47,742 nucleotides of DNA from Deltaproteobacteria bacterium (GTDB lineage Bacteria; Desulfobacterota; Desulfarculia; JACQYL01), in contig JACQYL010000002.1 in NCBI GenBank assembly GCA_016208165.1, positions 1-47,742 on the forward strand, in the 5' to 3' direction. Within the stretch, counting starts at the first letter, position 1, and each line of letters begins with the position of its first letter. Shown piece by piece: positions 4,629-32,418 of the stretch. Below the pieces are notes generated by a model. That model was not told where the DNA came from. It did no database searches and worked only from the letters and a program-made list of their open reading frames with translations. The translations under genes and the position numbers were made by a program.

Positions 4629-5954
4629 TCAGTCCCCCTGTGATCGTACGGCCTTCTTCACTTGAAGAAAAAATTGCTTTTTCCCGACTACCCGGATCCG
4701 ATCGCCCAACTCGAGCCTCTCATCGCTTTCCGCGTTCCAGGTCTCTCCATGTACGAACACTTTGATTTCGCCCGAATCCGCCAGTTGCGTTACCTGGCCT
4801 TCTTCTCCGAGCAAGCCTTCTAAACCCGTGGTGGGTTTGTGCAGCATGGCTTTGACGATCAACCCAAGAACGACCGTGAAGAACAGAGTTACAACAGCCA
4901 CCGTAGGCACGAGCACCTGCCAGGACACGCGAACCAAACCCAGGCTGTCACTATGAAATAGAAACATGGATCCCAAAACAAGACAAGTCAGTCCTCCGAT
5001 CGTGAGCATCCCGTAGCTGGCGATTTTGATCTCCAGGATAAAGAGGATGAGGCCGAGGATAATCAACAGGACGCCCGCGTAATTGACCGGCAAGGTCTGA
5101 AACGCATAAAAGGAGAGGATGAGCGATATGGCTCCTACGATTCCGGGAAAAACCGCGCCGGGGTTCGCCAGCTCGAAATAGAGTCCGACCATTCCCAGCA
5201 TCATCAGGATATAAGCGATGTTCGGGTTCGCTATAGTACGCAGAATCTTCTCCCGAAGGCTCTCCTCCTCATACGTCACGGTCGCGCCGGCGACGTCTAT
5301 CACCCGTTGCTTCCCTTTGACGAGCACGGTGCGCCCATTGATTTTCGGCAGCAATTCCTCGATGTTGCCGGCTACAAGATCGACAACCTTGTTTTTCAAG
5401 GCCTCATCTGCCGTGATCGACACGCTTTCACGTACGGCCTTTTCAGCCCAGTCCGCGTTTCGTCCCCTCTCGTCGGCAATGCTTCTGGCGTAGGCTACCA
5501 TGTCGTTTTCCACTTTTTTGGCCATGGCGCCCTCGATTTCCTTACCCATGGCCACCGGATGCGCAGCGCCGATGTTCGTGCCGGGAGCCATGGCGGCCAC
5601 GTGGGCTGCAATGGTTATGATCACGCCTGCGCTGGCCGCTCTGGCTCCGCTCGGGGCCACGTATACGACCACCGGCACATCGGATTCCATAATGGATTTG
5701 ACAATCGAACGCATGGAGTCGGCGAGTCCTCCGGGCGTGTCCAGCTGGATTACGAGGCACTCATCGTCGGCTACGTGAGCGTCCTTGATGGTCCGCTCGA
5801 TAAAAAGAGCCACCCCTGGGTTGATGCTGCTGTCCACTGTGGCGACTCGGACCGTTTTACCAAGTGCATAGGAGGTCGAGAAGAGAGTGCATAAAAAGAC
5901 CAAGATAAAACAAGCCGGAAAGGCTCGGCTCGTGTACACGCAGGTGCCGTTCAT
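4629..5954 (-). CDS. NfeD-family membrane-bound ClpP-class serine protease
   Basis: A signal sequence or first membrane helix (residues about 10-30) is followed by a ClpP-like periplasmic protease domain: VIQLDTPGG, then the catalytic Ser region SGARAASAGV, MAPGTNIGAAHP, and a likely catalytic Lys in the helix near EKAVRES. Four to five membrane helices follow, then a C-terminal OB-fold NfeD domain (GEEGQVTQLADSGEIKVFV, GDRIRVVG). Start 5954 overlaps the uracil-DNA glycosylase stop as ATGA, implying translational coupling; the open frame continues upstream only inside that gene. About 441 residues, the long NfeD1b form. Paired with the downstream slipin, its known family partner and substrate. 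Confidence 0.9.
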   Translation of the reverse strand: MNGTCVYTSRAFPACFILVFLCTLFSTSYALGKTVRVATVDSSINPGVALFIERTIKDAHVADDECLVIQLDTPGGLADSMRSIVKSIMESDVPVVVYVAPSGARAASAGVIITIAAHVAAMAPGTNIGAAHPVAMGKEIEGAMAKKVENDMVAYARSIADERGRNADWAEKAVRESVSITADEALKNKVVDLVAGNIEELLPKINGRTVLVKGKQRVIDVAGATVTYEEESLREKILRTIANPNIAYILMMLGMVGLYFELANPGAVFPGIVGAISLILSFYAFQTLPVNYAGVLLIILGLILFILEIKIASYGMLTIGGLTCLVLGSMFLFHSDSLGLVRVSWQVLVPTVAVVTLFFTVVLGLIVKAMLHKPTTGLEGLLGEEGQVTQLADSGEIKVFVHGETWNAESDERLELGDRIRVVGKKQFFLQVKKAVRSQGD

Positions 5955-6655
5955 GCTGAACTCCGTGGCGATGTTTTTTTCATCAGGTCCAACGCCCCCA
6001 TGATCTGCTTCATGTCGTCCCAGACATCCTTTTTCTTCGATGGATTTCTGAGCAGGTAGGCCGGATGATACGTGGGCATGACCCTGATCTCGCCCATGGA
6101 ATGAAACCGGCCCCGTAGAATGGAGATGGGGGCGGCTGACTGCAAAAGGGTTTGCGCCGCGGCCAGGCCAAGGGCGCAGATGATCTTCGGCCTGATGATC
6201 CTGATCTGGCTCCTCAAACACGGATTGCAGGTTTCGATTTCTTCAGGGAACGGGGTGCGGTTTCGGGGGGGGCGGCATTTGACCACGTTTGTTATGTATA
6301 TCTCTTCGCGCAACAAATCCATGGCCCGTATGATCTTAGTGAGCAGTTCCCCCGCCAATCCCACGAAGGGCCGGCCAAGACGATCTTCATCCCTGCCCGG
6401 ACCTTCTCCCACGAACATAAGATCCGCGGTTTCGTTTCCTTCACCGAACACAAGCAGGTGACGATTCTCGGAGAGATTGCAGCGGGTACAACCGGCCCAT
6501 TCCTGTTGCAACGCGCCCAAGGTCTCGGGCCTGCCCGGAGAATTTTTTCGCACGGAACCAGGTCCGAGGGCGTCCGCAAGATCGGGAGGAACAAAGATCT
6601 CCCGAATTCCGATGGATCTGTAAAAATGTAAAAGGCGATTCAGCTTTGGGTCCAT
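5951..6655 (-). CDS. Family-4 uracil-DNA glycosylase (Fe-S type)
   Basis: Removes uracil from DNA at the first step of base-excision repair. Family 4 features seen: the Cys pair CTRCNLSE, motif A GEGPGRDEDRLGRPFVG with the activating acidic residue, NVVKCRPPRNR and CNPCL, which supply the remaining 4Fe-4S ligands, ALGLAAAQTLL, and the HPAYLLRNP motif. ATG 6655 (MDPKLNRLLHFYRSIG) gives 234 residues, typical of the family. ATG 6790 is possible, but its extra 45 residues have no family character. It lies just downstream of coaBC and is coupled by a 4-bp overlap to the NfeD gene. Family 4 enzymes are common in anaerobes and thermophiles. Confidence 0.9.
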   Translation of the reverse strand: MDPKLNRLLHFYRSIGIREIFVPPDLADALGPGSVRKNSPGRPETLGALQQEWAGCTRCNLSENRHLLVFGEGNETADLMFVGEGPGRDEDRLGRPFVGLAGELLTKIIRAMDLLREEIYITNVVKCRPPRNRTPFPEEIETCNPCLRSQIRIIRPKIICALGLAAAQTLLQSAAPISILRGRFHSMGEIRVMPTYHPAYLLRNPSKKKDVWDDMKQIMGALDLMKKTSPRSSA

Positions 6656-6799
6656 ATATCCCGCGCCAAAGGTCCGGGCGCATCCCTCATACGTCAATTG
6701 CCTTGTGGCGTCTCCGGCAGGCCGGCGCCGGCCTGAAAGTTCTTGAAGGGGCGCCGGGAAAAAGCTCAAAGAATAGCGCCGGTGAATCATTGCCGTGAA

Positions 6800-8020
6800 T
6801 TAAGGGTTCATTCCGGATGCGTCTCTTTCCAGGATCCAGGTTCGCACGCGATCCAGCACCATATGGGCCGTCTCGATCTTTTCCAGAAACGGGATATCAT
6901 CGACCCGACCGTCCCTGTGAATGATCTTTACTTTGTTTGTGGAACACCTGAATCCGCAGCCGTCCTGGGTTATGTCGTTCGCAACGATGAAATCGAGGTT
7001 CTTGTTCTTCATCTTCCGGTTTGCATGCATCAAAAGGGCTTCCGATTCCGCGGCAAAGCCGACCAGACACTGGTGCGTCTTCTTCTGGCCCAATTCCCGG
7101 AGTATGTCCGGATTTTCCGTGAGCCGGATCTCCGGCTCCGTGGCCTCCCGCTTTATCTTCTGGGCCTTCGGCTCCCTGGCGGGCCTGAAGTCCGAAACGG
7201 CCGCCGTTTTGATCACCACCTGACTCGCTTCGTACTCGGCCAGCATGGCCTCTCTCATCTCGCGGGCGCTGACCACTCGAATCGTTCGAACCCCTTTTAT
7301 ATCCGCTTCCTCCGACGGTCCCGTAACCAGACAAACCTCTCCGCCTCTTCGAAGGGCGGCCTTTGCCACGGCGAACCCCATGCGGCCTGAGGAACGGTTT
7401 GTCAGGCAGCGAACCGGGTCCAGATACTCCTCCGTCCGGCTGGCGCTGATCAGAAAGCGGATGCCTTGAAAGTCCTTGGGAGAAAGAAGATGCTCGATTT
7501 CGGCCAATATGTCCTCAACTTCGGCCAACCTGCCGGGTCCTTCGGTTTTGCAGGCCAAATCGCCCGTGCCCGAAGGAAGAATCGAGTATCCGAGAGCGAT
7601 CAGCGCGTTCAGGTTCTTCTGCACGGCCGGATGCAACAGCATGTTCGAGTTCATGGCCGGGCAAACCAGCAGTTTGGCCCGTGTGGCCAGAGCGAGTGTG
7701 GTCAGGAAGTCGTCCGCAATGCCGTTGGCCAATTTCCCGATGATATTGGCGGTGGCCGGAACAACGGCGACCAAATCGGCCCACTCGGCCATGGCCACGT
7801 GCAGAACGTATCCCACGGTCTCCTGGAAGGTGTCCGTTATCACTTCCTCCCCGGACAAGGTCTGAAACGTCAACGGGGTCACAAACTTCTGGGCCGCCGA
7901 TGTCATGGCGACCTTGACCAGGGCGCCCCTTTTCATCAATTCCCGCAGGAGAAAAGCCGACTTATACGCGGCAATGCCTCCGGAAACTCCTAACAGTATT
8001 CGTTTCCCTTTGATGTGCAC
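6800..8020 (-). CDS. coaBC: Bifunctional phosphopantothenoylcysteine decarboxylase / phosphopantothenate-cysteine ligase
   Basis: Coenzyme A biosynthesis enzyme: the CoaB half joins 4'-phosphopantothenate to cysteine using CTP, and the FMN-dependent CoaC half decarboxylates the product to phosphopantetheine. The N-terminal flavoprotein domain shows ILLGVSGGIAAYKS, a His in VGYVLHVAMAEWAD, PATANIIGKLANGIADD and the substrate-clamp PAMNSNML. The C-terminal ligase shows EYLDPVRCLTNRSSGRMG and KIKREATEPEIRLTENPDIL. 406 residues, the normal bifunctional length. Translation starts at GTG 8020, with GGCGGAG upstream. It begins 4 bp after the stop of the upstream NAD-binding gene, so the two are tightly coupled. 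Confidence 0.96.
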   Translation of the reverse strand: MHIKGKRILLGVSGGIAAYKSAFLLRELMKRGALVKVAMTSAAQKFVTPLTFQTLSGEEVITDTFQETVGYVLHVAMAEWADLVAVVPATANIIGKLANGIADDFLTTLALATRAKLLVCPAMNSNMLLHPAVQKNLNALIALGYSILPSGTGDLACKTEGPGRLAEVEDILAEIEHLLSPKDFQGIRFLISASRTEEYLDPVRCLTNRSSGRMGFAVAKAALRRGGEVCLVTGPSEEADIKGVRTIRVVSAREMREAMLAEYEASQVVIKTAAVSDFRPAREPKAQKIKREATEPEIRLTENPDILRELGQKKTHQCLVGFAAESEALLMHANRKMKNKNLDFIVANDITQDGCGFRCSTNKVKIIHRDGRVDDIPFLEKIETAHMVLDRVRTWILERDASGMNP

Positions 8021-8023
8021 AAG

Positions 8024-8722
8024 TTACTCCGCCGGATGGGATGTTTCATCGTTGCCGGACGTCTTCCCCCGGGCCGGTTGAATGCGTTCGAAAGGGGTCA
8101 GAACGCCGTGACAGCGGCATGCCGTACCGATGAACAGGCGGCCTCGAGCGTTCTCGACCCGGGACAACAGTTCGAACAGAGCCGCCGGCCGGTATCCTCC
8201 TACACCGGGGCCGAGTTGGTGGCTCCGAATGACCAGCGCTTCGAGATCGGGTAAACGGATTTCGCCGAGCAGGTCGAACATGTTGCGTTGCCTTGGCTTT
8301 TGTGTCACCGTACACAGGTTCGCGGGTTCGGGACAGTGGTCCGGACACCGGAAATCGGCATGGCTGACATATATATTTCCGTTGGAGCCACGGATGGGGT
8401 GGGGCAATAACGGCTCGATATCGGACGAAAACGTGATTCGACGCAGTCTATTCGGGCCAAGCCGGCCCAGAACCCACTCCGCGGCCAGATGAACGGGCAC
8501 TGCGGGAATGATCCAGTCGGGACCCCGATCGTGCTCGAGATGCTCGAGCACGAAGGCCACTCCGTCACCGGGATGCAGCGTACGGTTGGGCCCCCGGCCC
8601 TTGTCCAACTGTTCCTGAAGGGGGTCGATCAGCACAAAGTGCGCGTCCGTTCGGCTGGAAGACAGACTCCGAAGGGCGTGTAGACCGAATTGGCCTATTC
8701 CAATGATCCAAATCGTTTCCAT
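8024..8722 (-). CDS. Rossmann-type NAD(P)-binding protein of unknown function
   Basis: 232-residue protein opening with METIWIIGIGQFGLHALRSL, a GxGxxG-like dinucleotide-binding turn (G-I-G-Q-F-G) at the start of a Rossmann fold, followed by an acidic strand end (FVLIDP) as in TrkA/RCK or dehydrogenase folds. The C-terminal half has several His and Cys (CPDHCPEPANLC, ACRCHG), possibly a metal site. No specific enzyme family is recognised. The ATG is only about 8 nt from a TATACT that could be a -10 element, and no Shine-Dalgarno is present, so it may be leaderless or start further in. Divergent from the ParB-like gene and 4 bp ahead of coaBC. Confidence 0.7.
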   Translation of the reverse strand: METIWIIGIGQFGLHALRSLSSSRTDAHFVLIDPLQEQLDKGRGPNRTLHPGDGVAFVLEHLEHDRGPDWIIPAVPVHLAAEWVLGRLGPNRLRRITFSSDIEPLLPHPIRGSNGNIYVSHADFRCPDHCPEPANLCTVTQKPRQRNMFDLLGEIRLPDLEALVIRSHQLGPGVGGYRPAALFELLSRVENARGRLFIGTACRCHGVLTPFERIQPARGKTSGNDETSHPAE

Positions 8723-8825
8723 AAATTTAAGTATACCATATTGCCATCTTGGGCACCAACGGATTAGAATCCCGGAGCAACTGATTCGTAACCATAAACC
8801 ATACGTTTCGTCTTGAAAGAAGAAC

Positions 8826-9824
8826 ATGAGTTCGCCCCTATCCGATGATTTCGTACATGCGTCCACGGAATCCGTGCCTCTATCCCGGCTGGATCTCTCG
8901 GAACGTTCTCACTGCCTGTCGTTTGGACGGGATTTGGAACCCTTGCTTCGCTCCATTCAGGCCATCGGCCTCGTTCAACCCCCGGTTGTCTGCCGCGGCA
9001 AGGATGATTTGCTTACGGTTCTGAGCGGATTCCGCCGCATCGAGGCGTTGGTCGATCTGGGAGTGGAAATCCTTCCCTGTCGAGTGTTGGACCGGTCCCT
9101 CGATCCGATGGACCGGCTCTCACTGGCGTTCTGGGAAAACCTCTCGCACCGAGGCTTCAACATCGTGGAAAAAGCCAGGGCCGTGGATGCCTTCAGTTTG
9201 CTTCAAGGATCGGAAAAAACCATGGAGAATGTGATGCCGGCCTTGGGGCTCCACCCGCATCTCAGGGAGCTGGAACGCATGAAGAAGACCGCCGGTCTGC
9301 CTGAGCCGGTTCTTCTGGCTTTAGTGGACGGGCGGATTTTTCCGGATCCGGCCATCTACCTGACCGAGTTCCCGGAATCAGATCGAATGCCCGTGTTCGA
9401 GTGTCTCACGTACCTCAACCTGAATCTGAACCAGCAGAAGGAATTCCTCGAGATGCTGCGCGACTTGTGCCTCCGGGACGGAGTGTCGGCCCGCCGGGTC
9501 CTCGAGGACGAAGACGTCCGGCGGTTGCTGGATCACCCTGCATGGAGCAGGCCGCAAAAAGCCGATCGAATGAAGCGGTGGCTCAAGGATCAGCTCAACC
9601 CTCGCCTGAAAGCCGCGGAAACCGCCTTTGACGAGCAGCTTCGGGAGTTGCGTCTGCCCGGCAGAGTACGCATTGCCCACGCGCCTTTTTTCGAAGCCGA
9701 AGGGCTGCGCGTGACCATGGACGCCGCCAACGGCGCGGAGTTGCTCGAGACGGTTAGGGAATTGAACCGGGTGTTCGAAAGCGGCGGTGTGGAAAAGCTG
9801 TACGACATCGTGGACGGGCTTTGA
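8826..9824 (+). CDS. ParB/sulfiredoxin-fold (ParB N-terminal domain) protein
   Basis: 332 residues. Residues about 15-110 match the ParB N-terminal nuclease-like fold: SVPLSRLDLSERSH, LLRSIQAIGLVQPPVV, a VLSGFRRIEALVDLG box (the GxRRxxA-like CTP/phosphate-binding motif) and IPCRVLD-type strand. After this come a helical region and a C-terminal domain without an obvious ParB HTH or dimerisation domain. It is not the chromosomal ParB: there is no parA beside it and no parS was noticed. It precedes an SPL-like radical SAM gene on the same strand by 156 bp. A DNA-binding or nucleotide-dependent regulatory role is likely, but inferred. Confidence 0.78.
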   Translation: MSSPLSDDFVHASTESVPLSRLDLSERSHCLSFGRDLEPLLRSIQAIGLVQPPVVCRGKDDLLTVLSGFRRIEALVDLGVEILPCRVLDRSLDPMDRLSLAFWENLSHRGFNIVEKARAVDAFSLLQGSEKTMENVMPALGLHPHLRELERMKKTAGLPEPVLLALVDGRIFPDPAIYLTEFPESDRMPVFECLTYLNLNLNQQKEFLEMLRDLCLRDGVSARRVLEDEDVRRLLDHPAWSRPQKADRMKRWLKDQLNPRLKAAETAFDEQLRELRLPGRVRIAHAPFFEAEGLRVTMDAANGAELLETVRELNRVFESGGVEKLYDIVDGL

Positions 9825-9980
9825 TCGTCGAGAGGAAGGACGTTTGATATCCGTGCGAGGCGGATTTCCCTGTGTTCCTTTTCAAGACGTTTTGACCCGG
9901 CGCCGACCGGCCGGGCGCTGCGGAGCCCTTTCCCCATCAGAAATGCTCTCTGGTCCGGATGCTTCCGGACAGCGAATCGA

Positions 9981-11111
9981 TTGAGCGTGCGAACCGTGTT
10001 CAAACCCACGAAAAGATATGTTGAACCGAGCGTTGAATCTTCTCCACTCGCCTCGAGAGTCGGGGCGAAACCACTGGTCCAACCACCGGCGCTGGACGAT
10101 CTTGAAGCCAAACGGACCCTGGTGCTGGCGGAAAACAAAGGACCCTTCCTCCGGCCGTGTCCGGGAACTCAGAACTACATCTGCTGCGGGTATCAAATTC
10201 TTCATGTGGGCACCGGGTGCCCGCTCAATTGCTCATACTGCATACTCCAATCCTATCTGAACGACCATCGCCTGCGCGTTTTCGCGAATCAGGACCGGTT
10301 GATTGAAGAGCTGAAACAGGAAGCTCGATCCCACCCGGACCGCCTCTTTCGATTGGGGACCGGGGAATTCACGGACAGTCTCTATATCGAGCACCTGGTT
10401 CGATTCGTGGACCGCATCGTCCCGGTGATCCAGGGCGAACCCAATCTGATGATCGAATTCAAGACAAAAACGGATAACATCGGTACTCTGCTGGAACTGG
10501 ATGATCCGGACCGCATTGTGGTCTCGTTTTCCATGAACAGCCGTCGTATCGTCCGCTCCGAAGAGCACGGAGCCGCAAGCCTCGAACAGCGCCTTCGAGC
10601 GGCGGAGCGATGCCGGGCCCGCGGCTTCAAGCTGGGGTTCCATTTTGATCCCATTATTCATTATCCCGGCTGGGAGGCGGAATACGGGGAAACCATCCGG
10701 ATGATATTCGACCATGTGGATCCGGCCGGGGTGATCTGGATCAGTCTCGGGTGTCTTCGATATATGCCGGACTTGAAAGTTGTCGCCCGAAAGCGGCACC
10801 CCCAATCCGCCATATTTTCAGAAGAATTTATCCGGGGCTTGGACGGAAAGACACGGTATTTCAGACCCATCCGGCAAGAGATCTACGCCGGCATGGCGGC
10901 GCGACTCCGCCGGGCGGATCCGGACTTGTGCGTCTATCTTTGCATGGAGAGCGATCTGGTGTGGCGTTCGGCCCTGAACCATTCACCTGAAACCGGTGAA
11001 GGGTTGGCCCGGATCTTGGATCGGCGGGCTTTTTCGTTTTTCCCGTCTCTGCGGGTTCAGGATTCGAAAAAGGCGGAGGCGGATAGGACAACGGGACGCC
11101 AACCGCTTTAA
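9981..11111 (+). CDS. Spore photoproduct lyase-like radical SAM protein
   Basis: Radical SAM enzyme with the CxxxCxxC cluster motif in TGCPLNCSYCILQSYLN (around residues 79-95), a region RLGTGEFTDSL resembling the SAM-binding part of SPL enzymes, and a DPIIHYPGW motif. Overall order and length (376 residues) match the spore photoproduct lyase family, which reverses the UV thymine dimer of spores. In a Gram-negative organism with no sporulation genes in view, the same repair chemistry is not proven; many such homologues are uncharacterised. Start is TTG 9981, or GTG 9987. The preceding ParB-like gene may be in the same transcription unit. Confidence 0.82.
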   Translation: MSVRTVFKPTKRYVEPSVESSPLASRVGAKPLVQPPALDDLEAKRTLVLAENKGPFLRPCPGTQNYICCGYQILHVGTGCPLNCSYCILQSYLNDHRLRVFANQDRLIEELKQEARSHPDRLFRLGTGEFTDSLYIEHLVRFVDRIVPVIQGEPNLMIEFKTKTDNIGTLLELDDPDRIVVSFSMNSRRIVRSEEHGAASLEQRLRAAERCRARGFKLGFHFDPIIHYPGWEAEYGETIRMIFDHVDPAGVIWISLGCLRYMPDLKVVARKRHPQSAIFSEEFIRGLDGKTRYFRPIRQEIYAGMAARLRRADPDLCVYLCMESDLVWRSALNHSPETGEGLARILDRRAFSFFPSLRVQDSKKAEADRTTGRQPL

Positions 11112-26557: not shown

Positions 26558-26591
26558 GGGGACGTCCTTGAGCGTTTGAACGGACGTCCCC
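26558..26591. terminator. Hairpin between convergent genes
   Basis: Perfect 10-bp inverted repeat GGGGACGTCC and GGACGTCCCC with a 14-nt loop, 8 bp past the crotonase stop and 12 bp from the Roadblock gene stop. It could stop both transcripts. The GGGGACGTCC arm resembles the repeat remnant at 12312, so it may derive from a mobile repeat. Confidence 0.55.
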
Positions 26592-26602
26592 TGATTCATG
26601 CG

Positions 26603-26983
26603 CTATTTTCCTTCCAGGATCCGAATGATTTCAGTTTCATATTTCTTAACCCTAAGCCTTACCCTGCCCAGCCATTCGTTTCTTTCGGTCATAATGAAAA
26701 GAAAGTAGGGCTTGCCCGGCTTGTGCCTGATCAGGAAATAGTAATCGTTCGTGGTGATAAGGATGTCATCGGTAACCTGGTCTTGGCCGACGAGCTTCAG
26801 AGCCTTGAGATTGGATTGAACGATGCTTGTCATATGGGCGGATATGGCCTCCGGGTCGACATCCGCGCGCTTGCTCAACCCCGCGATGGGGAGACCGTCC
26901 TCCACCAGGACCGCCGCCGACGCCACAAAGCCGGGGAGATCGTCGGCGATGGTTTCCAGAACGGTCTTTATGTCATATATCAT
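26603..26983 (-). CDS. Roadblock/LC7-domain protein (divergent type)
   Basis: 126-residue single-domain protein. The order of strands and helices fits Roadblock/LC7: ASAAVLVEDGLPIAGLSKRADVD, a long helix, then DDILITTNDYYFLIRHKPGKPYFLFIMTERNEWLGRVRLRVKKY (key elements: the central strand pair YYFLIR and YFLFIM). Bacterial members such as MglB regulate small GTPases or act as dimeric scaffolds. It is clearly more distant from the two other Roadblock domains of this locus than they are from each other. Last gene of the seven-gene minus-strand cluster; no GTPase gene is present. Confidence 0.8.
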   Translation of the reverse strand: MIYDIKTVLETIADDLPGFVASAAVLVEDGLPIAGLSKRADVDPEAISAHMTSIVQSNLKALKLVGQDQVTDDILITTNDYYFLIRHKPGKPYFLFIMTERNEWLGRVRLRVKKYETEIIRILEGK

Positions 26984-27040
26984 GCAAAAGGCCTTTTATT
27001 GTTACCCAGGACAGGTCGAAGCATGGTCGCGGAAAGGCTG

Positions 27041-27328
27041 TTATTTGAATACCTGGTTGACGGTTCGGTGAATCAGGTATTCCGCTTCCACCGAATAGTT
27101 GACGTAAAAGACCCGGACGGTCCTGTTTCCTTGAACCCCTTTAATACTGAATGCGCCGGGTTTTCTAACACGGAAAAAGGGTTTTGGAAAATGAGGGAAA
27201 TATTCAAGTGTTCCGAGTTTTTCCAGGCCCCGGATGAACGTTTCGTCGACCGGCGCATCAAAGAGAAGTTCCTTGATGACGAGCCCGTCGATACATTCCT
27301 CGACATCCTTTGTTTCCAGCAATTTCAA
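27041..27328 (-). CDS. Hypothetical protein, 95 residues, coupled to the PLP enzyme
   Basis: Small soluble protein of no family I recognise. It begins MKLLETKDVEECIDGLVIKE and has aromatic-rich strands (YFPHFPKPFFRVRKPGAFSI, TVRVFYVNYSVEAEYLIHR). Its ATG overlaps the stop of the PLP enzyme gene as ATGA (27325-27328), so translation is coupled and equal amounts are expected, consistent with a partner or acceptor protein of that enzyme. It has one Cys (CIDG), which could accept sulfur; this is speculation. It is followed 57 bp on by the divergent Roadblock gene. Confidence 0.7.
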   Translation of the reverse strand: MKLLETKDVEECIDGLVIKELLFDAPVDETFIRGLEKLGTLEYFPHFPKPFFRVRKPGAFSIKGVQGNRTVRVFYVNYSVEAEYLIHRTVNQVFK

Positions 27329-28458
27329 TGTTGGTTCGTGATGGTTCTTAAAGCCTGAACGAAGGTTTCGATTTCATCGTGTGTGTTGAAGCAGGAAAAA
27401 CTCGCTCGCACCGCGCCGAGTGGGAATGTCCCCATGGCCCGGTGGATCAGCGGCGCGCAATGAAGACCCGTTCGGACTCGAATATCGAAAGACTCGTTTA
27501 AGATGTACCCTATTTCCTCGCTACTCCATCCATTTACATTAAAGCATACGATTCCGCAATGATTCTGTTCCGGTGGCTCGGAGAAGATCGTGACGTCGTC
27601 GAGTTTTCCGAGTTCTCGAACCATGTGGCGCACCAGCTCCTCTTTGGTGTTTCCCAAAAAGGAAAGTCCTTTTTGAAGGATATATCCCACGGAGGACGCG
27701 AGGCCCGCGATACCCGGCTGATTCAGTGTTCCCGCTTCGTATTTGACCGGCCACATCTCCGGCATGGATTTCAGGTCGCTTCGAATACCGGTTCCTCCTG
27801 ATTTCCAGACGCGAGGATTCAATCGATCGCCCACCAGAAGACCTCCCACGCCCTTGGGGCCCAGAAGACCTTTGTGTCCGGTGAAGGCGAGTACGGCCCG
27901 GGACATGCCCGACATATCCACATCCAGGGATCCGGCGGATTGGGCCGCGTCGATAACGAGCGGTATTTCGTGAGCATCACAGATGTCGTAAATGTCGGAA
28001 AGGCATAACCGGGCGCCGGTGACGTTCGAAGCGTGATTGACGACCGCGAGGCATGTGTGTTTTTTCAAGGTATTCTTGAAGTCCGAGGCGGACGGATATC
28101 CGGGGAACCGGCACGGGAGGACGTCCACGTCGCAGACACCGTTCGTTTCGAGATAGTGAAGCGGGCGAAGAACCGCGTTGTGCTCCAACTGAGTGGTAAT
28201 GATATGGCCGCCCTTGGAGGCCAGGCCGTGGATGGCCATGTTGAGTGCTTCCGTGGACCCGGAGCAGAATAAGACCCTGTTCGGGTCCGGGAAATGAAAC
28301 AGCCGGGCAATTCTTTCCCTGCATGACGAAATAACGGACTCTCGCGTCACGTTCTCACGGTATGGATTGGTCGGCGGATCCGTCAGGCTTTTCGTAACCG
28401 CCTCGGCCACGCCGTCGGGCTTCGGATAACTGGTGGCCGCGTTATTGAAATAGATCAT
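27325..28458 (-). CDS. Cysteine desulfurase-like class V PLP enzyme (TIGR01977-type)
   Basis: 377-residue fold-type I PLP enzyme. Key residues: His93 (LEHNAV) stacking on PLP, Asp170 in VIDAAQSAG, the Schiff-base Lys196 in FTGHKGLLGP, and Cys334 in RTGLHCAPLIH at the place of the catalytic Cys of group II desulfurases. The N-terminus MIYFNNAATSYPKP is typical. Expected reaction: cysteine to alanine with persulfide on the enzyme, or a related beta-elimination. No iscU, sufU or thiamine/molybdopterin sulfur acceptor is adjacent; instead it lies within the Roadblock/V4R cluster and is translationally coupled to a 95-residue protein. Confidence 0.9.
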   Translation of the reverse strand: MIYFNNAATSYPKPDGVAEAVTKSLTDPPTNPYRENVTRESVISSCRERIARLFHFPDPNRVLFCSGSTEALNMAIHGLASKGGHIITTQLEHNAVLRPLHYLETNGVCDVDVLPCRFPGYPSASDFKNTLKKHTCLAVVNHASNVTGARLCLSDIYDICDAHEIPLVIDAAQSAGSLDVDMSGMSRAVLAFTGHKGLLGPKGVGGLLVGDRLNPRVWKSGGTGIRSDLKSMPEMWPVKYEAGTLNQPGIAGLASSVGYILQKGLSFLGNTKEELVRHMVRELGKLDDVTIFSEPPEQNHCGIVCFNVNGWSSEEIGYILNESFDIRVRTGLHCAPLIHRAMGTFPLGAVRASFSCFNTHDEIETFVQALRTITNQH

Positions 28459-28492
28459 GCCGGAGCGTTCTATTCAGGGATATTCGACAAGG

Positions 28493-28855
28493 TTAGAAGA
28501 AATCAGCCAGAACGGGAACGAACTTCTTGACATACAATCGAATCATTCCCAAGGTCTTGGAATCCGGCGCCAATATAACCAGAAGCGCATCCCCGACCGG
28601 GACGCACATGATCATGGCGTCCGGGGCTTCGAACGTCAGCGTACTGAAAGCCGAGATGTTCAATTCGTCGGCCATCTTATCGGTACCCATGATGACCATG
28701 GCCACGGACGCCCCAATGGTATCCATGTCCTGTGTCCCAAAAGAGCCCGCGGATTCAATGACAAAACCGTCTTTCCCGACGACGATAATTCCCCTGACTC
28801 CGGGCACCTCGAGCATTTCCTGGAGTATTTGAGTTGAAGTTCTTTTAACGACCAT
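28493..28855 (-). CDS. Roadblock/LC7-domain protein
   Basis: 120-residue Roadblock protein: GIIVVGKDGFVIESAG, GASVAMVIMGTDKMADELN, IMCVPVGDALLVILAPDSKT, LGMIRLYVKKFVP. Over 98 aligned positions it is about 50% identical to the C-terminal domain of the receiver-DUF4388-Roadblock protein at the head of the cluster, so the two may form a heterodimer, as Roadblock proteins usually dimerise. A good AAGGGAG site precedes ATG 28855. Lies between the V4R-like gene and the PLP enzyme gene. No GTPase partner in the window. Confidence 0.88.
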   Translation of the reverse strand: MVVKRTSTQILQEMLEVPGVRGIIVVGKDGFVIESAGSFGTQDMDTIGASVAMVIMGTDKMADELNISAFSTLTFEAPDAMIMCVPVGDALLVILAPDSKTLGMIRLYVKKFVPVLADFF

Positions 28856-28934
28856 TGAGAGTCTCCCTTCTGATAGCCTGATGGGAATCGTTCAAAAGGA
28901 TTGGAATCTTCCAGTCCTTGTGTCCCCGTGCCTT

Positions 28935-29513
28935 TCATTCAGAAACGACAAATTCGCCAAAAGGGTCGCCAACCTCGATACCCTGAGTCTGTTCACACTT
29001 GAATTTGCCCATGCCGTCGGGGTAGGGATCGCTGTAAGCGAGGTCAAAGAAGGCGGAGCTGACGCCTCGGATCATGAACGCGCATTTGTAGCCGGGCTCC
29101 ATGTCCGCTTCGTAATAGTCCTGGGCGCGAACGACCATTCTCTTGCCCTCTTTGATTTGGGCGATTCCGGACTTGGCCCATCCCCAGGCCGTGAATACCG
29201 CGTACGCTCCTCGAAGGACATCCTTGGCCCCTTCGGTGATCATGGGTTCGACCACGGATTTGAATTCTTCCGAGGTAATGATGCCATATCCCGTGTTGTA
29301 CCCGCACTCGAGCGCGCAGTTGACCAGAGCGTCCTCCAGCTCCCGGCGGCGTTCCTCCGGGGCGGCGTCCATCATTCTTGCGGTAAATGTGTTCCAAAAA
29401 GCGACGGGAAGGTTATTCACCAACACGTTGTAAGCGGGGATAAGACCCTCATCGTCCCCTTGCACGCGTAATTCCGCCAGCTGTTTCACAACCAGATCTC
29501 GCTGAACCGTCAT
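28935..29513 (-). CDS. V4R-like (4-vinyl-reductase/hydrocarbon-binding fold) protein 1
   Basis: 192 residues. The C-terminal half resembles the V4R domain: a helix pair (KSVVEPMITEGAKDVLRGAY), KCAFMIRGVSSAFFDLAYSD, and the terminal KCEQTQGIEVGDPFGEFVV, where V4R proteins normally have a Cys-x-x-x-GD-x-C-x-F metal- or ligand-binding end; here the last Cys position is Gly. V4R domains bind small hydrophobic ligands or metal and often feed signalling proteins. GGGAGAAG precedes ATG. It follows the second V4R-like gene by 12 bp, so the products probably work together. Assignment is moderate. Confidence 0.6.
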   Translation of the reverse strand: MTVQRDLVVKQLAELRVQGDDEGLIPAYNVLVNNLPVAFWNTFTARMMDAAPEERRRELEDALVNCALECGYNTGYGIITSEEFKSVVEPMITEGAKDVLRGAYAVFTAWGWAKSGIAQIKEGKRMVVRAQDYYEADMEPGYKCAFMIRGVSSAFFDLAYSDPYPDGMGKFKCEQTQGIEVGDPFGEFVVSE

Positions 29514-29525
29514 CAGTACTTCTCC

Positions 29526-30041
29526 CTATTTCAACCTAACGGAAAATTGGCTCGACTTATCTCCAACGACCATGCTTGAATTCTCGATGACCTCGTAGCT
29601 TCGGGGCGGCTTGTTTGAAGCCGAAGCGAACATGGCGGAGATGTATCCCTGGGTCCAGAAGTTAACAGGTCCGTCGTTCCTTCCCCATTTCTTTATCCAC
29701 CCTTGATCCACATGGGATCGGGTCAACGTGACCTCACCTCCCTCTTTGCTTCCACCGGCGTGCATCAGTCCCATTCCCATGACGGAATAATAGGCTCCGC
29801 CCACCTCGAGTCTGTCTTCAAACGATACGATGTGGTTCTTGGCGCAGTAGTCGTCGATCATCGGTCTGACGGAGTCTTCGACGGATTCCCGGAGTATTCG
29901 AACGCCTCCGAAGTCGTCAAAATCTATAGCCAGCTTGGAAAGCAAGGTCATGTAATGGTGGCAGTGCATAACGGTCAAGAATCCGTTCGTAAAATGCCGG
30001 TAGGTCTTCTCGTCAAATGAAAATTCGACATGTAACGCCAT
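29526..30041 (-). CDS. V4R-like protein 2, His/Cys-rich
   Basis: 171 residues from ATG 30041, supported by AAAGGAG eight bases upstream. N-terminal FSFDEKTYRHFTNGFLTVMHCHHYM contains an HCHH metal-ligand-like cluster (split here as MHCHHYMTLLSKLAIDF), and YCAKNH follows. Overall helix-strand pattern and the pairing with the next gene suggest a relative of V4R/ATC-hydrolase-like hydrophobic-ligand proteins, but the match is weak. It is 70 bp downstream of the receiver-DUF4388-Roadblock gene and 12 bp upstream of V4R-like protein 1. Possible metal- or ligand-sensing partner; function unknown. Confidence 0.5.
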   Translation of the reverse strand: MALHVEFSFDEKTYRHFTNGFLTVMHCHHYMTLLSKLAIDFDDFGGVRILRESVEDSVRPMIDDYCAKNHIVSFEDRLEVGGAYYSVMGMGLMHAGGSKEGGEVTLTRSHVDQGWIKKWGRNDGPVNFWTQGYISAMFASASNKPPRSYEVIENSSMVVGDKSSQFSVRLK

Positions 30042-30111
30042 TAAATGGGCTCCTTTCATTCGAACTAAGGGTTCGGGATAGAACCTTTATATGGTTTGGT
30101 CCGCACGGGGT

Positions 30112-31494
30112 TCATCGGTTTTTGAAATGGATTTCCATGTCGGGTATTCTTTTCTTCATGCGTAGCCGGATCATTCCCAATCTTTGTGAGTCGCGCGCCA
30201 CCAGAACGAGAAACACGTCTCCGACGGGTGCGCAGACGATGGCGGCGCCTGCGGATTCAAGCATCAGGTGTTGGAACGCGGATATGGCCAGTTCGATCCC
30301 CATCCTTTCGGCCCCCTGCAAAACCATGGCGACCGAAACGCCGACCTTTGTCCTGTCGATGTCGCCGGAGCTTACGGAAGACTCTAAGACGGAACCGTCC
30401 TTTTCGACCAACATGACGGCCTCAACGCCGGAAATCTCCAGAAATTCCCCAAGGGCCTTGGAAAACGGATCCGTAGTCTCAACGATCCGGATTTCCTCTT
30501 CCGCTTGTTCCTGTCTACGCTTTCCTTCGGATTCCCTCTCGATGCGCTCCAACGAATAGAACGTTTCAGAATCTTCAAAGGCCGAGTCCGGTTTCTGATC
30601 TCGATCCGTAACAGCCGGAGCTGTTTCCACGGCAACGACCGGTTTTTGCCGAAAAGACGATTTCTCGTCCCTGTGCTTCATGGCCGCCATGATCAAGCTC
30701 ATCAGCCCGGATTCGATTCTTTTTCGGATCTTCTTTTTGGGGAGGTTCTTGAACAGGATCTCGGCCCTTTCCCACCCGATGATTTCAATGGCCGCTTCTT
30801 TGCCCGTCAAGGCTCCCCACATCGCGTCCCATAGCTCTCCCTTGTTAAAATACAAGTAGCCCGGTTTGGATATCTCCGTTCTGGCTTCCACGAGGCAGGT
30901 CTTTTGATCCGAATCCACCATTTGGATGAAACTGGCAATGGATACCCCGCTGATGGAGCCTTTGCCGTGCTCTTGCTGCAGGCTATACAGAATGGCGTCT
31001 TCCAATTCTTTGAATTGGAGCGGTTTCTTTATGAAAGGAAAACTCCCGAGGCGCTGCAGTTTTTCTTTTGTTTCGGGGGTTTCGTATGTGCTGACCACGA
31101 TAACGGGTGTGGAGGGAAAATGATCGTTGAGGTAGGCCAAAAGTTCAAAACCATCCATTTCAGGCATCATGAGATCGGTGACCACCAGGTCCACCGGTTC
31201 GTTTTCAATGATTCGGATGGCTTGCTTTCCGTTTTTGGCCGGGAAAAGCCCAAGATCGCACGAAGAGGCCTCAAAATAGTCTTCGAGCGCTTTCAAAAAA
31301 AGGTCGTCGCCATCAACGATGAGAATACCAGGCATCGGCGCGTTCCGGTAAGACGGCTGGAGGTTCTTCCTGAATTTCTTCCCCGGCTCCGCTTCGACTC
31401 GGATGGACGCGGACGAAGGGTTCGAGGATCGTAATCGATTGAAAAGAGCCGGCCGGGTGGCTTCTCTGCCCGAAACATGCAGGTCCCGCTCCAT
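30112..31494 (-). CDS. Response regulator receiver-DUF4388 (PATAN)-Roadblock fusion protein
   Basis: 460 residues, head gene of the cluster. Residues about 56-170 form a receiver domain (GILIVDGDDLF, phospho-acceptor Asp in TDLMMPEMDG, Thr/Ser in VSTYET, Lys in FIKKPLQ). Residues about 178-270 match DUF4388/PATAN (GSISGVSIASFIQMV, CLVEARTEI, GYLYFNKGELWDA). A charged linker follows, then a Roadblock/LC7 domain (about 355-455) close to the neighbouring stand-alone Roadblock protein. ATG 31494 has AAGGGGG upstream; ATG 31335 directly at the receiver lacks one. There is no DNA-binding output, so signalling is presumably by protein contact. Confidence 0.88.
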   Translation of the reverse strand: MERDLHVSGREATRPALFNRLRSSNPSSASIRVEAEPGKKFRKNLQPSYRNAPMPGILIVDGDDLFLKALEDYFEASSCDLGLFPAKNGKQAIRIIENEPVDLVVTDLMMPEMDGFELLAYLNDHFPSTPVIVVSTYETPETKEKLQRLGSFPFIKKPLQFKELEDAILYSLQQEHGKGSISGVSIASFIQMVDSDQKTCLVEARTEISKPGYLYFNKGELWDAMWGALTGKEAAIEIIGWERAEILFKNLPKKKIRKRIESGLMSLIMAAMKHRDEKSSFRQKPVVAVETAPAVTDRDQKPDSAFEDSETFYSLERIERESEGKRRQEQAEEEIRIVETTDPFSKALGEFLEISGVEAVMLVEKDGSVLESSVSSGDIDRTKVGVSVAMVLQGAERMGIELAISAFQHLMLESAGAAIVCAPVGDVFLVLVARDSQRLGMIRLRMKKRIPDMEIHFKNR

Positions 31495-31660: not shown

Positions 31661-31689
31661 AGTGTATGTCTGTTGCAATACTTTGTCAA
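31661..31689 (-). promoter_or_regulatory. Sigma-70-type promoter of the Roadblock/V4R operon
   Basis: On the minus strand a perfect TTGACA (31684-31689), a 17-bp spacer and TACACT (31661-31666) lie about 165 bp upstream of ATG 31494 in a locally AT-rich stretch. All seven genes down to 26603 are on this strand with short gaps, so this could be the operon promoter. Confidence 0.55.
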
Positions 31690-31800: not shown

Positions 31801-32418
31801 TCAAGACCCTGCACTCGGATTCTCCGGGTCCGAATCCCACCGGGTAGGGTTACAGATGATGTATTCCCGGATACGGTTCAGTTCCTCATCATTGCGAATG
31901 ATGTGTTTGTAATAATTTCGTAGTCCTATCTTCGCGCCGGGGGTGTTGCGTCATTCATTGATCTGTTTGGTGGTGGCGGATTTAAATCCGCGTAGGATCG
32001 CGCCAATGGTCTGCGAGGGTGACCGGGGTTCCGTAGGGGCGTATTGCAATACGCCCCTACCACGTTCCGAAATGATCACGATACCGTGTATATGGGTCGG
32101 CATTACCACGAATTCATCCAACGCCACATTGGGTCGCAATTCCGGTGTATTTAACCATAGGTTCTTAACAGTCCGACCTGAATCATCCAAAACCATTTGT
32201 CCGTTCACCACATGTCGGAACAGACATTCCCGATTCCGGGCGCACATGGTCACTAAATACACCCCGGCCTGCGAATAATCGTATCCCCGCAATCGGATGG
32301 ACCGGCGGTTATGCTGCGTCGATTTCCGTTGCGAGGGCTGTTCTTGCCGAGCTGGGGCTCGGCGTTCCCAGGAGAGCGGTGGGAGCAGAAGCGTGATCAT
32401 ATGTAGGGGCGCGACCAC
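31801..32418 (-). pseudogene. RAYT (REP-associated Y1 transposase) broken by one in-frame TGA
   Basis: The frame starting at 32418 gives RRSIRLRGYDYSQAGVYLVT, NRECLFRH, the HUH motif FVVMPTHIHGIVII and TIGAILRGFKSATTKQINE, then stops at TGA 31951-31953. The same frame continues without interruption as RNTPGAKIGLRNYYKHIIRN, the conserved family tail with the catalytic Tyr region, to TGA at 31801. One base change (for example CGA to TGA) would account for it. The first codons, up to about 32310, overlap the REP-containing repeat and are probably not part of the original protein. Transposition by RAYTs moves or maintains REP hairpins. Confidence 0.85.
32346..32369. repeat. REP-type hairpin, copy 3
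   Basis: Same 24-bp core as copies at 12194 and 13785 (stem GCCGAGC/GCTCGGC, flank GTTCCC), in the same orientation relative to the RAYT gene as copy 2. The surrounding block from 32270 to about 32405 is nearly identical to 13712-13845. Confidence 0.85.

Follow-up and report, generated by a model that had tools for sequence, protein, structure and literature searches.

A seven-gene V4R, Roadblock and cysteine-desulfurase-like cluster in the Desulfobacterota: a candidate sensory unit

The DNA analysed here, called the window throughout, is a stretch of 47,742 nucleotides from contig JACQYL010000002.1 of a Deltaproteobacteria bacterium (GenBank assembly GCA_016208165.1; phylum Desulfobacterota). 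A preliminary description, made from the sequence alone, had pointed out seven open reading frames (ORFs) between positions 26603 and 31494 as a candidate undescribed system, and all seven lie where it had placed them, on the minus strand and with short gaps. The first, g1 (30112..31494), specifies a receiver (REC) followed by DUF4388, which we take to be the PATAN domain, and a C-terminal Roadblock/LC7 domain. Next come two V4R subunits, A (V4Ra; g2, 29526..30041, 171 aa) and B (V4Rb; g3, 28935..29513, 192 aa), a stand-alone Roadblock/LC7 protein of 120 aa (g4, 28493..28855), a class V pyridoxal phosphate (PLP) enzyme (g5, 27325..28458), a 95-residue protein (g6, 27041..27328) and a divergent Roadblock protein of 126 aa (g7, 26603..26983). 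Our principal finding is that the cluster is a conserved unit, and that g2 and g3 probably form a sensor pair that belongs to a larger family. The ordinary members of this family, termed canonical here, keep a zinc site and are followed by a histidine kinase; the zinc-less branch to which the window belongs has other partners.

In the order of transcription the gaps from g1 to g7 measure 70, 12, 79, 34, -4 and 57 nt. The negative value corresponds to the coupling noted in the preliminary description, which exists as an overlap with other letters than the ATGA given there: g6 starts at a TTG and overlaps the stop of g5 as TTGA. The same 4-nt overlap is kept in the related loci L079 and L033. 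While the ORF of g2 opens at 30059, the sequence AAAGGAG lies just upstream of the ATG at 30041 and the homologues begin at that point, so that 30041 is most likely the true start, giving 171 aa. The true start of g1 is probably near 31338 (ca. 408 aa) and not at 31494, since similarity to its counterpart in a second genome, G285, begins at residue 54. The TTGACA-17-TACACT box proposed as a promoter upstream of g1 is indeed present (31661..31689, minus strand), but sites of this type occur in the region at the level of chance (4 observed versus 3.5 ± 2.0 expected from shuffled sequence), and a comparison of the window with L079 revealed no conserved promoter. At the other end a 10-bp perfect inverted repeat (GGGGACGTCC/GGACGTCCCC; 26558..26591), read directly from the sequence, separates the convergent stops of g7 and an enoyl-CoA hydratase gene. 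It is a possible bidirectional terminator; it has no T run, and the terminator scan did not list it. Scans for Rfam families and tRNA genes returned nothing.

Within a sample of 395 genomes from the phylum, that of the window among them, a profile built from two g6 sequences matched three others (G285, G372 and G203). G285, from another family, shows the complete set of seven in unchanged order between different flanks, with identities to g1 through g7 of 42 (over 424 aa), 70, 82, 72, 60, 62 and 47%. In G372 (locus L080) a V4Ra-V4Rb-PLP-g6 block is followed by a chemoreceptor; in G203 the PLP-g6 pair lies in a locus with genes of the TrsS, DVU_1553 and DVU_1555 families, and no V4R gene is found there. 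An independent search of the phylum with a profile of window-type V4Rb recovered G285 and G372 at 326 and 338 bits, the rest being canonical-type and scoring no higher than 160 bits. Among the 394 genomes other than that of the window, g6 is thus present in three and zinc-less V4Rb in two, both of them shared (hypergeometric p = 4e-5, uncorrected for shared descent). Outside the phylum, a gammaproteobacterial locus (L032) carries V4Ra, V4Rb, Roadblock and receiver genes, its g4 being 64% identical to that of the window. The V4Ra-V4Rb-PLP-g6 block accompanied by a methyl-accepting chemotaxis protein (MCP) occurs in L033 (Ignavibacteriales) and L086 (G603) as well as in L080, and L036 has V4Ra-V4Rb-MCP. 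Co-occurrence in other genomes, on which the preliminary description had staked its proposal, was therefore found, complete and in order in G285 and in part in two more phyla (Gammaproteobacteria and Ignavibacteria), which supports the seven genes as a conserved unit. The viral contigs and plasmids searched contained no relatives. The earlier statement that no known pathway uses this gene set agrees with the open-access literature searched, where we found no description of the cluster, of Roadblock combined with DUF4388, or of V4R-kinase pairs.

Neither g2 nor g3 matches the Pfam V4R family (PF02830) at E ≤ 1. Their description as V4R-like nevertheless appears to be right, because members of homologous canonical pairs match PF02830 at 37.1 and 32.6 bits (cut-off 31) and because the AlphaFold model of g2 (pLDDT 95.4) finds its closest PDB counterparts in PoxR and MopR, namely their phenol-sensor domains (PoxR 5frw, TM 0.79, E 1.4e-7), and its next ones in TRAPPC3/Bet3. 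The family profile of g3 matches MopR with an E value of 8.5e-6. Both are therefore predicted to be V4R/Bet3-fold proteins, V4R and Bet3 having been described as homologous (PMC2253512). When 84,980 species were scanned with the V4Ra alignment, 42 loci emerged, of which 37 (L037-L073) are canonical. V4Rb comes directly after V4Ra in 34 of these, and in 33 of the 34 pairs the next gene after V4Rb is a histidine kinase; in the remaining one the contig ends there. Kinase domains were confirmed in two canonical examples, and the window genome itself has, on another contig, a canonical pair with a kinase and a response regulator. The adjacent V4Ra-V4Rb pair with its histidine kinase is in its own right a widespread and apparently undescribed module, found in the Desulfobacterota, the Nitrospirota and others. 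Some Gammaproteobacteria, of the same order as the source of L032, carry the two subunits fused in single chains of ca. 400-470 aa, with an A-type part (FHCN motif) and a B-type part (L150; L151 556-1974; L154 940-2157; L155 295-1485). The zinc cysteines are mostly absent from these fusions, and none of the three scanned has a Pfam match. The existence of single polypeptides with both parts speaks for A and B functioning together as a unit. Thus g2 and g3 lie side by side, a heterodimer is strongly implied by the fusions, and the pair is probably a V4R heterodimer sensor from a family whose usual output would be a histidine kinase.

The zinc of DmpR is coordinated by three cysteines and a glutamate (PMC7264223), and V4R cysteines in MsvR affect redox-dependent DNA binding (PMC3729527). 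In a profile alignment the canonical Cys, Glu, Cys and Cys fall on the PAC, ETHC and GDEHC positions of MopR. This CECC set is intact in every canonical subunit aligned (20 A, 15 B), and is replaced in all ten window-type A subunits (N-E-S/A-S) and all ten B subunits (A/G-Q-G/A-G/A); g2, which carries an HCHHY motif, reads N-E-S-S and g3 A-Q-G-G. Since this branch has lost the ligands of the known V4R zinc site, the metal binding that the preliminary description gave among V4R functions does not fit that site here. The missing site does not exclude the V4R fold, because mouse TRAPPC3 likewise lacks it (PMC10933270). With the cysteine columns excluded, the zinc-less subunits form one clade with a support of 100/100; the tree is unrooted, and the branch of one canonical row (L030) is very long. 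The most economical interpretation is a single loss of the site, jointly in both subunits.

Along with the zinc site the neighbours change. A histidine kinase is found in none of the 11 zinc-less loci, versus nearly all of the canonical pairs. At least three zinc-less loci are of the Roadblock type (the window, G285 and L032, where the receiver protein follows), this count being a lower bound. Four have a chemoreceptor, recognized in L036, L080 and L086 by an MCP signal domain and in L033, which additionally carries CheW, by Cache and HAMP domains that precede the end of the contig. The g6 gene adjoins the V4R pair in seven of the 11, and in five of these so does the PLP enzyme. The loss of the zinc site and the change of output partner may be functionally linked. 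Seven zinc-less loci, none of them of the Roadblock type, also have a gene for a protein of 60-62 aa directly upstream of V4Ra (L033 767-949; L036 9755-9943; L080 253-435; L085 7598-7786; L086 7941-8123; L108 1804-1992; L034 9788-9976); in one locus this protein gives a weak, sub-threshold match to SoxZ (16 bits).

The cysteine-desulfurase-like character ascribed to g5 is borne out by matches to Aminotran_5 and, by a narrow pass, to TIGR01977 (378.6 bits, cut-off 377), a cysteine desulfurase family of the selenocysteine-lyase/desulfurase type; its loop cysteine lies in RTGLHCAP. The score against the SclA lyase model is 296.9 (cut-off 525). The genome contains nine class V aminotransferase-type matches over the cut-off, and g5 is therefore not its only possible desulfurase; because SelD is also present, g5 and g6 may act on selenium. 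As reported earlier, g6 is of no recognized kind and matches no Pfam or NCBIfam family. In an alignment of 24 members Cys12, Pro50, Phe52 and Lys63 occur in 24/24, and in 13 of the 24 loci the gene lies beside a TIGR01977-like enzyme. To judge from this alignment g6 is a new, unnamed protein family with one invariant cysteine. Its model is confident (pLDDT 92.6) but finds no counterpart in the PDB at E ≤ 0.001; weak resemblances to TBP-like and PLP folds were set aside. A role as a pair in selenium/sulfur trafficking has been proposed for TIGR01977 enzymes and the small DUF3343 protein, in which a single cysteine is highly conserved (PMC5322559; for TIGR01977, PMC2276186). Neither g6 nor its relatives match PF11823 (DUF3343/Se_S_carrier), and TrsS, DVU_1553 and DVU_1555 are not among the cluster genes or their immediate neighbours. 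Two g6 matches with an in-frame TGA (L102, L103), considered as selenocysteine versions, had no g6-like reading frame around the match and were dropped, leaving 15 of 17 g6 genomes in the class Ignavibacteria.

The desulfurase and g6 are a separable module, found also without V4R. In L109, L112 and L114, of the class Ignavibacteria, the PLP-g6 pair stands without V4R between pheS-like and carboxyltransferase-like genes (about 4.0-9.5 kb), and in L115 (6156-9692) g6 lies between hydrogenase-maturation-like genes. A similar order is seen in L030 of genome G116 (6744-9981): a 168-aa protein, V4Ra, V4Rb with an intact zinc site, a SufS-like desulfurase and a 104-aa protein, possibly an independent V4R-desulfurase association. 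The 104-aa protein and g6 could not be aligned, and for this reason L030 was not counted as the same system.

In g1 the Response_reg, DUF4388 and Robl_LC7 (PF03259) matches are all above their Pfam cut-offs, as its earlier three-domain description requires. The Robl_LC7 scores are 31.0 bits for g1, 49.2 for g4 and 17.9 for g7 (cut-off 23, with g7 below it). The best PDB matches of g4, also correctly named a Roadblock protein, are MglB/Robl chains. The three PDB chains matched best by a two-sequence profile of g7 are all MglB (E 0.005-0.009), in keeping with the label of divergent Roadblock. The hhalign probability of g7 against g4 is 14%. No Ras-like GTPase is encoded in the window cluster or among the ORFs adjoining the cluster in L079. 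The remark that no GTPase is present is correct for the cluster; elsewhere in the genome, on contig C48 (L031, about 5900-6862), a Roadblock ORF, the third Roadblock of the genome, is followed by an MglA/Ras-like GTPase. PilT is present in the window genome and in both other Roadblock-type genomes. Cyanobacterial PATAN receivers have been linked to the pilus apparatus, PixE to PilB1 (PMC7690835). On the strength of the MglB-like profiles, the MglA-like GTPase, PilT and the PATAN-pilus link, our leading guess by analogy is that the Roadblock version acts on polarity or type IV pili and the MCP version on chemotaxis.

Upstream of the cluster lies a 155-aa ORF (31951-32418, minus strand) with no Pfam match, which we take to resemble a REP-associated transposase from the pattern GYDYSQAGVYLVTMC...MPTHIHGI.

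We favour, with about even confidence, a single signalling unit. Its sensor would be a V4R heterodimer acting in trans, with outputs that are exchangeable and of the motility or polarity type, and a cysteine-desulfurase/sulfur-acceptor pair would serve it. In this scheme g2 and g3 would form the heterodimer and hold a small ligand in the V4R cavity. In ordinary V4R pairs the kinase encoded downstream is presumably the output; in the zinc-less branch the signal would be read by others, namely g1 with g4 and g7 in the window, and a chemoreceptor, with or without CheW, in the related loci. The final output would probably be motility or cell polarity: the Roadblock version would work by way of type IV pili or of switching of the MglA type, the MCP version by way of chemotaxis. 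Meanwhile g5 would take sulfur (or selenium) off cysteine (or selenocysteine) and pass it to the invariant cysteine of g6, which may hand it on either to the sensor itself or to the ligand; in this way the sensor would read, or depend on, the sulfur state of the cell. The sensor pair and its evolutionary switch are well supported; ligand, sulfur flow and output are conjectural. Several findings weigh against the scheme. The Roadblock type is known from just three loci, no output can be recognized beside the zinc-less pairs of L034 and L035, and some MCP-type genomes have no PilT over the cut-off. The PLP-g6 pair also occurs without V4R, in the Trs-type locus of G203 and in the pheS-carboxyltransferase neighbourhood of the Ignavibacteria, and in four of the 11 zinc-less carriers (L032, L034, L035 and L036) the genome sequence searched contains no g6 at all; the sulfur pair is therefore not strictly required. 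The preliminary description had proposed a phosphorylation-responsive Roadblock complex controlling, or controlled by, a sulfur- or ligand-handling unit. This is partly supported: the unit is conserved and a receiver/Roadblock set with a sulfur pair is a fair reading of it, while the probable sensor is now the V4R pair, Roadblock becomes one of two alternative outputs within the zinc-less branch, and the desulfurase and g6 are separable.

That independence of the PLP-g6 module lends some weight to a doubtful but possible alternative, in which the cluster serves primarily to deliver sulfur or selenium and only secondarily as a sensor. Here a cofactor would be assembled or thiolated by g5 and g6 and carried or accepted by the V4R pair, with the Roadblock proteins as structural scaffolds. 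The second, divergent V4R pair of L030, followed by its SufS-like enzyme and 104-aa protein, fits this picture, as do SelD and the described association of TIGR01977 enzymes with the small cysteine protein DUF3343 (PMC5322559, PMC2276186); most relatives of the V4R pair, however, adjoin kinases or chemoreceptors, that is signalling genes, and have no sulfur pair. Were selenium the substrate, the cluster might be a selenium sensor built on a selenocysteine lyase instead of a sulfur system. EF_2568, from which TIGR01977 takes its name, is a proposed selenocysteine lyase (PMC2276186), SelD is at hand and a relative of g6 sits in a seleno-associated TrsS/DVU_1555 locus, yet g5 falls far below the SclA cut-off and no selenoprotein gene was found within the cluster, which makes this quite improbable.

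A different emphasis would make the V4R heterodimer and the Roadblock proteins a TRAPP- or Ragulator-like scaffold acting as GTPase-activating protein or guanine nucleotide exchange factor on an MglA-like protein encoded elsewhere. MglB is among the best matches of the Roadblock profiles, an MglA-like GTPase and PilT are in the genome, and V4R is homologous to TRAPPC3/Bet3 (PMC2253512), with TRAPPC3 among the matches of the g2 model. We consider it unlikely, in view of loci none of which contains a GTPase, MCP-type loci that have no Roadblock, and a GTPase whose adjoining Roadblock (L003/L031) is already an MglB-like partner. Combining these ideas, a TRAPP-core-like V4R-heterodimer/Roadblock complex might sense the sulfur state through a dedicated desulfurase and g6 as a new persulfide carrier, and steer polarity or pili through an MglA-type GTPase; in its entirety this is decidedly unlikely. 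Finally, the genes might be chance or inherited neighbours with no functional link. The full copy outside the window is from one genome only and neighbours may persist by drift, but G285 belongs to another family and has the seven genes in order between different flanks, the A-B pair is fused elsewhere, and in other phyla blocks of the cluster recur in new arrangements with the same partners, so that chance is very improbable.

A V4R sensor pair whose apparent output partner (kinase, chemoreceptor or Roadblock/receiver) is exchanged along with the loss of the zinc site in both subunits is a clear example of module swapping, and one open to experiment. The g6 family is a candidate carrier of sulfur or selenium for desulfurases whose acceptors are poorly known. 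The presence of V4R and Roadblock in one bacterial operon may also bear on the origin of TRAPP-like assemblies, because Bet3 has been proposed to descend from V4R (PMC2253512).

Among known systems the V4R sensor domains of PoxR, MopR and DmpR resemble the pair in fold (TM 0.79), in the C/E/C/C columns which align in the canonical relatives, and in their sensor role. The cluster differs from them in having two separate subunits in trans and no fused AAA+ or DNA-binding domains, and both of its subunits have lost the zinc ligands (three Cys and Glu) of DmpR (PMC7264223). With the MglB/RomY-type regulators of MglA the cluster shares the MglB matches of g4 and g7, a receiver protein, and a genome with an MglA-like GTPase and type IV pilus genes; it contains no GTPase itself, and V4R, the desulfurase and g6 have no counterpart there. 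The cyanobacterial PATAN receivers PixE, LsiR and PixG have the receiver-PATAN architecture of g1, given our assumption about DUF4388, whereas g1 ends in a Roadblock domain, no light receptor is involved and an interaction of g1 with the pilus motor is hypothetical. The association of TIGR01977 with DUF3343 (Se_S_carrier) is paralleled by an enzyme beside a protein of 80-100 aa with one highly conserved cysteine, although g6 matches no Pfam family and its model no clear PDB entry. The TRAPP core, a TRAPPC3/C6 heterodimer with longin subunits, is likewise a V4R-type pair joined to small proteins, here Roadblock, and zinc-site loss is also seen in mouse TRAPPC3 (PMC10933270); the cluster is bacterial, with Roadblock in place of longin and no Rab, so that the relation is one of fold and the complex a predicted one.

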